This document shows positions 34,577 to 57,684 of a stretch of 64,000 nt of DNA, one piece after another. Source of the stretch: Kluyveromyces lactis (taxonomy: Eukaryota > Ascomycota > Saccharomycetes > Saccharomycetales > Saccharomycetaceae); assembly GCF_000002515.2 (NCBI RefSeq), contig NC_006042.1:1860001-1924000 (forward strand), read 5' to 3'. Both the position numbers and the translations under genes were made by a program. The notes beneath the pieces were generated by a model that saw nothing but the letters and a program-made list of their open reading frames with translations, made no database searches and was not told the origin of the DNA. Within the stretch, counting starts at the first letter, position 1; each line of letters starts with the position of its first letter.

Positions 34577-34780
34577 TTAACGCAAACGACGAGCTTCACG
34601 TTCGGATTCCATCAAGACCAAGATGTCACCTTCTCTGACTGGACCCTTGACGTTTCTGACAATGGTTCTAGTAGTGTCTTCCAAGAATTCAACACGAACT
34701 TGGGTGACACCACCACGAGAACCGGTACGGCCTAAGACCTTGATAACTTTAGCTAGAGTAACTGGGGTTTTGGTATCCAT
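34577..34780 (-). CDS. RPS28: 40S ribosomal protein eS28 (Rps28)
   Basis: A 67-residue small-subunit protein, the same length as S. cerevisiae Rps28A/B and nearly identical: [60 protein letters not shown]. There is no intron. One copy stands for both S. cerevisiae genes (YOR167C, YLR264W). Upstream, the promoter has long poly-A/T tracts (34889-34956), usual for ribosomal-protein genes. Confidence 0.98.
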
Positions 34781-35178: not shown

Positions 35179-37830
35179 TTAAGAATGGAATTGTTTGTCT
35201 CTTATGAGTTTAACTAGTGCTTCTTCTGGAAGATGTAACATATCTTTGATTTCACCAACGAACCCAGTAATCTTTTCCACGTCGTTCTGGAAACTGGACT
35301 GAAGCTCTTTGAACATTGTTTTGTATTTCTCAGATAATTCGTTAATAATTTTTTTGTTCATCTCACCGTTAATTAACGAGATCTTTCTTGTCAATTCATT
35401 ACTGAAGTTCATCACGGAGTGATAAATCTGTTCCTGTAGTTGGTTTGTAAACGAGGTCTCAAACGATGGGAATTTATTGCTACCACCTGAAATAGTGGTG
35501 TTTTCTGCGGTAGCAGTAGCAGCTGCAAACATCGATATGTCAGTATGAGACGATTCTGTAATTATGGATTTGTCGTTACCGATTGTGATATCATCAGATC
35601 TTGTGTCATCTGCAGAATTAACTAATTCATTTTCTGCCGCTACAGTACTAACATTTGCACCGTTTTTCTTGTTAAAGCAGGGTTTTTGTTCGTTACTTGT
35701 CGTGGTGAGAGGCTTTTTCACATTTTCTTCCGCAGCGTAGACTTTTCTAGATGACCTTGTGATTCTCTTCACCGATGAAGTGGTGACTGGCTGTCTCTTT
35801 TCAACTTCCTTTATCCGTGGTTCTCCATGCTCCGAAAGGGCAAATATATCTTCTTTCTGATCTTGTACCTTCTGCCTCTTGTTCTTTTCTTCTGTACTCT
35901 GCAGCACGATGGCCTTTCTTTTGATTGATATTTTATTATTGTTGGCGGCTAACATTTTTGATTTTGCAGGCGGTACATCTTGAGAGGGCACATATACAAT
36001 TGGCTTGAAATTATTCAATACAGTTTGCTTGCTTTTATCTACCTTCTTTTTATTGCCCCTTGGCAATGGCAGGGCAAATATGTCATCTAGTATCGATACA
36101 TCTTTCTTCTTTGTTGTCGTCGCCTTGAACATATCTGTCACTTTTTTAATCTTACCGCTATTCCGGTCAACATTCCCAACCTTCTTATTGTGTACAGCCA
36201 TAGATGTGTCTTTTGAGATGTGTGGGATAGCACATAATCGAGCAAGAGACTCATTTACAGGTTCTTCAATATCTTCTTGGCAAGAAGATAATGGACCCAT
36301 TGGTGCCTTTTTGTTAAAATCTTCCTTTAAAACTTCCAACGTTTTCGACGTTGCCCTCACTATCTTTCGCTTCTGAGCTATAGCCAAAGGAGATTGTTGA
36401 TCATGTTCAATAGAATCATCAAATATAGAAAGTTTCAATTTCCTTGGGGTCTCGGGTTGTTGGGATGACGATGGTACCATTTCGGGTACTGGTGGTTTCT
36501 CTACTGTGTCGTCATGTGGTTTTTCGGGAGTATCATAGTGATCGGTAACTTGACCCATATGAAACGAACTATTAGTATTATCACCATTTTCTATCGTCAT
36601 CAAGTTATCACCGACACTTGGTTCTGGCTCTTGAATAGACGATTCAATGATTCCATCATCGTAGGACGATGGAAATCTTAATGAAATATAGGTCTGTACT
36701 TCACTGATCTTAGGTAATTTAGTAGCATTCCAAATCAATTCACTAACGGCGGGATCGTGGCTCTGAAATTGGAAAGACGTTGTCTTGTTAAGAGTTGCTA
36801 ACCATGCTGAATGAGGGGACAGGACACAGTGTGAAAACGTGTCAGTCAAAGTAATTTTCAATGTGTCCCTTAAATCTCTCACGATATCTACTTTCTTTGG
36901 ATTGATTTCGAAGAAAAGGCCTTCTCCATCCCAAAAGTATAATGAATGGTGTATCACCTGCATATATGATTGATGCTTGGATAACGTTTTTATTCCACTC
37001 GATTTTCCTGTGATATAAACGGCTTTCTTGATGGAACCGAAATTTGTGAAAAAGCTACCGTACCTTTTTAAAATTAACTGAATAATTGCATCTTCTCCAT
37101 GCTTAGCACGGTGAGGATAAAGTTCATCTGAAAAGAAAGATTTTGTTTTCTCAGGTTCTGTCCATAGTTTTGGCGCCGAGGATAAAGTTGCTCGTATATT
37201 ATGCTTCTTGGGGAAACAATTGATTATCAATTCAATTAAGTAATTTGCCAGTTGAAAACTGTTCAAGGAATCCAAAATTTCCCCTAAACGATAATTGTAC
37301 ACCTCCCGTAACTGTTTAATAATAAATCTCCGAATGTCTGATTGCTGATAAAACAACTCTAGGAGTAGCATTATTGCTTTCCAGTTATGAATATTATCTC
37401 TTGAAATTCCATAGTTCAACAAACTTCTGGTCAAACTTTCAAGCCCATCACTTTTCCTTGGAACTTTGATTTCCTTGGTTGTAGGTACCATACGATACAA
37501 AAATATGCTGTTAGTACATGAACTATCAGGGACAAACTAATGAACTTATTTCACGAAACATACTGCCAATTTGAACCACCATCTATCTGATATAAACGAT
37601 CTCTGATTTAGAATCTGTCCAATATGAAGAATTACTTCGAGAATACCATACTCTAATGAAAACCGTGGTCTGATTGCCACATCCACAATTTCTTCGAATA
37701 AAATACCACATTGCTTATCGACGGATAAACCACGATTCCTTGCATTGTTCCAACTGTCAACAACATCCGTTTGAGTTGTTCCTGGTTTCTCCTGTATATA
37801 ATCAACCAATAGGTTAATCACCTCCAGCAT
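35179..37830 (-). CDS. RED1: Red1, meiotic chromosome-axis protein; two exons (37830-37564, 37473-35179)
   Basis: Red1 organises the meiotic chromosome axis, binds Hop1 and activates Mek1. The long frame below 37500 has no ATG until 37491. The same reading frame is also open further upstream from an ATG at 37830, and is cut only by a stop inside a 90-nt segment that begins GTATGT (37563-37558) and contains TACTAAC (37516-37510). Splicing to the AAG ending at 37474 is in phase and gives an 853-residue protein (S. cerevisiae Red1 827). The N-terminal about 330 residues look like the helical ARM-type domain plus the following Spt16-like domain. The middle is disordered, with basic patches and TSSVKRITRSSRK. 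The C-terminus (last about 85 residues) is the coiled coil that oligomerises in the Red1/SYCP2 family. The position RPS28-RED1-YPT6 matches YLR264-263-262. The identity rests on synteny and layout more than on motifs. Confidence 0.82.
37474..37563 (-). other. Predicted spliceosomal intron in RED1 (90 nt)
   Basis: The 5' site GTATGT and branch point TACTAAC are perfect yeast consensus; the branch lies 47 nt from the 5' site start and 36 nt before the acceptor. The only in-phase acceptor close by is AAG, a rare but used alternative to CAG/TAG. The AG directly after the branch sequence is too close and out of phase. Retaining the intron adds a stop after 94 codons. No Mer1 enhancer (AYACCCTY) was found inside. 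Confidence 0.75.
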
Positions 37831-55309: not shown

Positions 55310-57684
55310 TATTGGTTCTAAGGAATTGATCGAAGTCAAATTGAAGGACAATGAATTGAAGGGCAGAAATTAAAAGACGTGAAAAATGTAGCTAATGCGT
55401 AATTGAACTTTGCCTATCTGTAATTGAGATTAAATATCCGATGTTTATATTACTCTTCGCCCTTTTTTTATAGTGAATTGATCTAAATGCCAGGAGAAGT
55501 ATACTTGTTGGATATTGAGTTCAATCTGTGAAATGAAAAGATCTTAGTAAACAACAGTTTTCAACTTAATACATTCAATGTGAACCTTGGCGCTGTCCAA
55601 AAAAAGGATACTAACCGAAAAGTGATTTTGGAAATTGTTATAGTTAATGAAGCCTAAGATCTACCAAAAAATATTCAGCCTGTTTATATCGGAGAGTAAA
55701 GTGGATTAGATTAGCGACTGTATAAAGTTAACGAAAAATACTTCGTAGTAAGAAATGGAAATATTGACATCTCCCATACCTCAACTACTTAGAAAGCTTA
55801 TTAAGTCTTGTCAGGTTCTTTGATATATGATCGCTGATAAAGTTTGGTATTCACAGAGGAACGGAATACCCAAAAAAAACTGGTAGAAATCAATCGAGTA
55901 TATCGAGATTTCTTTTTTTGACATCTTCAATGTCTCCAATATAATAACAGATTCTTCAGTAAACTATGACAAAGCCAACCTGCGGAAGCGGAGCTTGATA
56001 GAGTTTCCTTTGATAAATGAAAAAGGAAAAAATTACTTTGACAAAGCAGTACAAAACCACGGGAAGCTTTTTGGCATGTACGGATCGTTAGCATCAAAGA
56101 TAACCCAGGAGTAGAAAGGTGCCTATAAGCTACCTAGAACTGGGTTCTCTTGAAGAGATAACGGAAACACTGGTTCTGCACTAAAATCTGCAGGGATGAA
56201 AAGGAGGACGGGAATTCTTGCATAATACAAACCCAGTTTGTCAAAAAAAAAATTAAGTGCTTTTTTCTTTTCGAGTGGGAAAATTTTCAGTGAGACTAGG
56301 AATGTTGTTTGTTGTATTGCAATGATCAAGAGAAAAATGACATTCTTTGTCGTATGTCATATAATTGGAATGGATGGAGAAAGGAAGGAAATACACCCAG
56401 TAGAATGACTGGCGCATAATTTCTATGAGCAATAGTACAAGATATTCTGTATATAGGTATGTAGATGACAAATGTTTTCCCGAAGCTGGAAGATAAGACG
56501 GAACAATAAATGCCATACAAGACAAAAAAATCACTGATGCGGAAGCATTAACTATCTGCACAGAATCAATGGTACTTGCATGAAGATAATAGTGCCATTA
56601 CGACGCATCCACGTAACTAAATCAGATATTCTGATCAGGTAAGGCCTAAAACCACCGATGATAAGTCCACCAAACACATTCAGTTTTCGGAATATTTGGG
56701 AAGTTTCGACCCTCTGTCATTATGTGTCTAGAAATAGAATCTCTTGTATCTCTGAGCCTACTTTGAATGACGACACGGAAAAATCGACTGAAGATGTTTC
56801 GTCATACGCAAACGAAAAACTGTAAAGTGGGTTTAACGCACCACGAATTCTCATATGAGGGACTGAAACCCTTTCCGTAGCGAATCACACTTTGTTCCTT
56901 TATTCCTAGTTAATCAATACCCCACCATAAACCAAATCCAAGAAATCTTATTCCTTTGTAATGTCTTTTTCAGTGTTAGTAAGAATTGCATCAACATGCT
57001 ATAGGGTATTTACTGTACAGAATACCGTGCTGGCACAAGCTGTCTCCATTACGAACTGTCGAAAGTAATATCTCCTTATCGGGGTTCCATTAGGACGCCA
57101 AAAATGAATGCAAGAAAAATTAGAATAGTGCCTGAAAACCAAAGGATGAATATTTGATTTTCTTGGTATCCAATCGCTTCAATAACAAGCTATTGATCTG
57201 CGAAGATATTTCCCACGGAATATCTAGGGTTGGATTATTGGTTTTTATCCGGAATAAAACCTTAGTTTGGCATTAACAGAATATTCAAAAAAATGAAACC
57301 AGGAAACATACACTACAAGGGGCAACATGGTTAACCATGATAACCAGGGCAACAATGGACTGGCAAAATTGTTGAATGCTGGCCAAACTTGTTCTTTACA
57401 TTCGAAGATCAACCTTGAATATGACTGCTCGGAAGGGGAGAATCGGATAATTATAAGAGTTAAATTGACATGATAGCAATGTTTTGAATGTGGAGAGAGT
57501 AAAACACGGGGCTGGATGAGTATATAACTTGGTAGATACCTTCTCTCTACGACTTTTACATAGGAGTCCTTCTTTTTGATAGTTCTTTACATATTCACGT
57601 AGAACATCTCGCAGCAATGCTCATTTTAATGAGTCAACTGCGGCTTTTAAGTCCTTATCCACCGCGAGAGCTTCATTCTAAAAT

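Follow-up and report, generated by a model that had tools for sequence, protein, structure and literature searches.

The 64-kb window, the whole stretch of Kluyveromyces lactis DNA analysed here, contains the gene of the meiotic axis protein Red1 on its minus strand. RED1 is flanked on one side by a SWT1-like gene and the gene for ribosomal protein S28e, and on the other by a gene for glutaminyl-tRNA synthetase. The S28e gene (34577-34780, minus strand, 67 codons; Pfam PF01200, E 1.2e-31) is located between the SWT1-like gene and RED1. This neighbourhood presumably corresponds to the order of genes at the RED1 locus of the yeast ancestor.

RED1 is predicted to comprise two coding exons. Exon 1 (37830-37564, minus strand, 267 nt) starts with the ATG at 37830 and ends in phase 0 after 89 codons. 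Its ATG has an A at -3 and an in-frame stop codon three codons upstream. Exon 2 (37473-35179, minus strand, 2295 nt including the stop) encompasses 764 codons plus the stop codon. A predicted spliceosomal intron of 90 nt (37563-37474, minus strand), a length divisible by three, separates them. Splicing would yield a protein of 853 aa, while the intron-retaining frame encodes 94 aa. The two frames in the same phase and the truncation after 94 residues had already been described in a sequence-only reading of this DNA; the coordinates were reproduced, and translation of the frame gave the same truncation. That reading had counted one stop codon inside the 90-nt segment. There are two in frame, TAA at 37548-37546 and TAG at 37539-37537. 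Without splicing, the main frame has its first ATG (37491-37489, minus strand) within the predicted intron, as had been claimed. This ATG has a C at -3, opens an ORF of 770 aa and is probably a false start.

The identity of the main frame is clear. The 770-aa ORF matches the Pfam family Red1 (PF07964) over the whole profile, positions 1-754, with an E value of 8.5e-250 and 831.5 bits (cut-off 25). A search of the genome (10,729,447 bases in 7 contigs) with the Red1 profile returned a single match, RED1 in the window, and no match was obtained in 14 control genomes. The PF07964 match begins 36 residues into exon 2. Exon 2 fits the whole profile as the Red1/Rec10 axis proteins do, whereas exon 1 is left uncovered by the Pfam model. 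Pfam searches with the four exon-1 ORFs, K. lactis included (see below), returned no match at E <= 1 for three and one chance-level match under the cut-off for the fourth (P0006). Since no Pfam family reaches its cut-off on exon 1, no curated model assigns exon 1 to Red1.

The 90-nt segment carries the hallmarks of a canonical yeast intron: a GTATGT donor, a TACTAAC branch site at the usual distances and an AG in frame. All three had been pointed out before and were found in place. The 5' splice site GTATGT (37563-37558, minus strand), which in frame encodes Val-Cys, is followed by the branch site TACTAAC (37516-37510, minus strand; branch A at 37511), with 47 nt from the start of one motif to the start of the other. 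The 3' splice site AAG (37476-37474, minus strand) lies 37 nt after the branch A. Both 47 nt and 37 nt are within the donor-branch-acceptor distances that are usual for yeast introns. As an acceptor, AAG is weaker than YAG, and just a third of the nucleotides that separate the branch motif from the acceptor are T. Counted from the branch motif, 150 nt hold 11 AGs, of which this AAG ending at 37474 is the only one to preserve the frame. No earlier AG lies at a plausible distance from the branch A; the CAG at 37508 is just 3 nt away. For K. lactis, long branch-to-acceptor distances have been reported (PMC4202332). Within the window, a GTATGT with a TACTAAC 30-70 nt later occurs once on both strands taken together, in RED1. 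Such a pair was also present in 12 of 200 windows simulated with a first-order Markov model. This means, the motif pair alone is just mildly unusual, and the case is carried by the framing and by conservation.

Conservation was assessed at the protein level. A protein search with the 94-residue retained frame as query scored four candidates and gave four matches, one of them the window's own. The sequence-only reading had proposed looking for the exon-1 peptide in relatives. In one form this check turned out positive, as the three non-self relatives are 86, 75 and 67 % identical to it (E 1.1e-46 to 4.9e-34). In each relative, the peptide is a free-standing short ORF of 92-96 residues. Columns 1-88 of the alignment of the four sequences show 70.5 % pairwise identity, and 46 of these 88 columns are invariant. 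Column 89 varies. Columns 90-91 are Val-Cys in all four ORFs, the window's own included. Thereafter, identity falls to 7.7 % (1 of 13 comparisons in columns 92-96), and the ORFs stop within 1-5 residues. Because GTATGT reads Val-Cys in the phase of exon 1, the simplest reading of the invariant pair is the donor site itself.

The acceptor border can be read from the Red1 ORFs. Five were found in the protein database, one of which (P0001) is a copy of the K. lactis gene with a one-residue difference. All five lack exon 1, and none of the exon-1 ORFs found runs into exon 2; the two halves are therefore separate ORFs in the relatives, too. Three Red1 ORFs begin in the tail of the intron. With the slash denoting the junction, they read MVPTTK/EIKVPR (P0001, K. 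lactis), MYLLKQ/DIKVPR (P0002) and MIFVK/EIKVPR (P0008). Lys or Gln directly before the border suits an AAG or CAG acceptor in phase 0. The start Met is situated 6, 6 and 5 codons upstream of the junction, so that these ORFs have no common start. P0003 and P0009 begin only beyond the junction and are hence uninformative on the acceptor. Taken together, the intron position is conserved at the protein level, the donor border in three non-self relatives and the acceptor border in two, as read from protein letters of exon-1 and exon-2 ORFs that come from separate records.

In a profile search for Red1, scoring was confined to the 7994 candidates with most words in common. It listed eight proteins: five were the Red1 ORFs, all devoid of exon 1, and three were exon-1 ORFs, with no intronless outgroup Red1 among them. 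P0007, although part of the query profile, was not among these eight. A tblastn search with P0001 in genome contigs, covering 16 pattern-matched stretches, revealed no relative. P0008 is a deposited protein of Kluyveromyces dobzhanskii CBS 2104 ('unnamed protein product'). As it is devoid of exon 1, at least one public Red1 model misses this exon. P0008 has 447 residues only, and its end differs from that of the longer Red1 ORFs. This record may have a frame problem at the 3' end as well.

The best explanation, to which we assign a probability of about 0.93, is that a canonical spliceosomal intron of 90 nt, common to close relatives, divides the coding region of K. lactis RED1 into two exons and that its removal yields an 853-residue Red1. 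The spliceosome would use GTATGT, TACTAAC and AAG and join codon 89 to the main frame. Unspliced RED1 RNA would yield the 94-residue fragment and is expected to be a substrate of nonsense-mediated decay. Exon 1 would supply the start, about five helices, of a probable armadillo-type N-terminal part of the axis protein.

The proposed structural role was examined with predicted structures. Mean pLDDT was 40.9 for the model that includes exon 1 and the read-through intron versus 48.6 for the model without exon 1. Both values are poor, and confidence was no higher when exon 1 and the read-through intron were included. The models were therefore used for their secondary structure alone. The low-confidence model that includes exon 1 has five helices over residues 2-97, the last of which passes the exon border at residue 89 into the read-through intron. 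In both models, a beta-rich, PH-like part is located further on. Foldseek searches against the PDB returned no match at E <= 0.001 for either model (177 and 394 matches at E <= 10). Among the best 50 of the 177 and the best 50 of the 394, many weak PH- and FERM-type matches were present and SYCP2 was absent. A comparison of the first 366 residues with solved structures yielded a single chance-level match (E 0.34). Proteins of the Red1 type have an armadillo and a PH domain at the N-terminus (PMC8131943), and they have been described as having an ordered domain at the N-terminus, with the Hop1-binding motif behind it (PMC6349405). The modelled helices in exon 1 and the PH-like part agree with these published N-terminal domains but prove little.

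Two explanations dispense with an intron. The two frames could encode separate products without splicing, a 94-residue small protein and a 770-residue Red1 starting at ATG 37491. Both frames are indeed open, and the protein database stores them as separate ORFs. Nevertheless, this is very improbable: The small ORFs are alike exactly until Val-Cys and then diverge and stop, and the Red1 ORFs do not share a start, which precedes the junction at different distances in three and follows it in two of the five. In addition, the C at -3 of ATG 37491 has to be compared with the A at -3 of ATG 37830. Alternatively, the break in the frame could stem from faulty sequencing or from a lesion peculiar to the strain, since the exons are in the same phase and separated by two stop codons alone. 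That such an error or lesion accounts for the break is scarcely conceivable, because three relatives have ORFs that stop at a matching position behind an identical Val-Cys and the 90-nt segment bears both splice motifs.

A third proposal is compatible with the two-exon gene and concerns the use of its intron. Splicing might be regulated: if vegetative cells kept the intron and meiotic cells removed it, splicing would gate Red1 and axis assembly. RED1 is a meiotic gene, and retention would truncate the protein at residue 94. Meiosis-specific splicing of some yeast genes via Mer1 is established (PMC10550323). Regulation of this type is nonetheless unlikely for RED1, as its donor and branch site match the consensus perfectly, its intron is devoid of a close Mer1 enhancer, and promoter control could suffice. 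Mer1 targets usually have a weak, non-consensus 5' splice site, and the Mer1 enhancer motif is AYACCCUY. This motif was not found in the RED1 intron, where the best match has mismatches at 3 of 8 positions. Thus, the weak donor and the enhancer known from Saccharomyces are both absent from the K. lactis intron. Control at the promoter is suggested by a URS1-like site, TCGGCGGTTA (37953-37944, minus strand), 113 nt upstream of the exon-1 ATG. It has one mismatch to TCGGCGGCTA, which we take to be the URS1 consensus, and the mismatch sits in what we assume to be the core. The window contains three such sites with at most one mismatch on both strands, this one included. It is tentatively regarded as a candidate meiotic promoter element, and meiotic control may accordingly sit at the promoter. 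Even less probable is a more specific scheme, in which Kluyveromyces Red1 would be gated post-transcriptionally by keeping the intron in vegetative or early meiotic cells and removing it on a meiotic cue through a route free of a Mer1 enhancer, with axis assembly depending on splicing. Most likely, RED1 splicing is plain and efficient and involves no dedicated switch. Of the sequence-only reading, the intron itself withstood scrutiny with respect to signals, frame and exon-1 peptides of the relatives; its regulated switch found no support, given the consensus donor and branch site and the poor enhancer match.

Short spliceosomal introns in meiotic yeast genes are a well-known kind of feature. 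In Saccharomyces, DMC1, HOP2, MER2, MER3, SPO22, AMA1, REC114 and other meiotic genes have introns. The predicted RED1 intron resembles them in being a short spliceosomal intron in a gene for meiotic recombination or axis formation. To our knowledge, S. cerevisiae RED1 has no intron. Literature searches for Red1 introns in Kluyveromyces, K. lactis included, and Lachancea gave no report of a RED1 intron. Introns in HOP2 and other genes of Saccharomycetaceae that had not been annotated were found by aligning relatives (Hooks et al., 2014; PMC4202332). HOP2 is a meiotic gene like RED1, and annotation had missed these introns, as it did the predicted RED1 intron at least in the deposited K. dobzhanskii protein. 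RED1 does not occur in the main text of that survey, which started from the introns of S. cerevisiae, S. uvarum and N. castellii. With the starting set given there, an intron of RED1 restricted to Kluyveromyces would fall outside the survey.

If the two-exon structure is correct, Red1 models of the Kluyveromyces clade that start at a Met within the intron or later miss at least 89 residues from the beginning of the N-terminal domain. Such truncated models could mislead the design of constructs, alignments and Pfam PF07964, which begins downstream of the junction. Furthermore, RED1 would be one more intron-bearing meiotic gene, a useful case for the question why yeasts poor in introns have kept them in meiotic genes.

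Two minor observations may be added. If the source sequences of PF07964 were truncated like the ORFs found here, the genuine N-terminus of the Red1 family may be absent from the model. Elsewhere in the window, a second pair of GTATGT and TACTAAC is present at 57311-56981 on the minus strand, 330 nt apart. The surrounding region, 55400-57600, has no listed ORF above 114 codons from stop to stop. This pair may be due to chance or belong to a gene whose first exon is very short.
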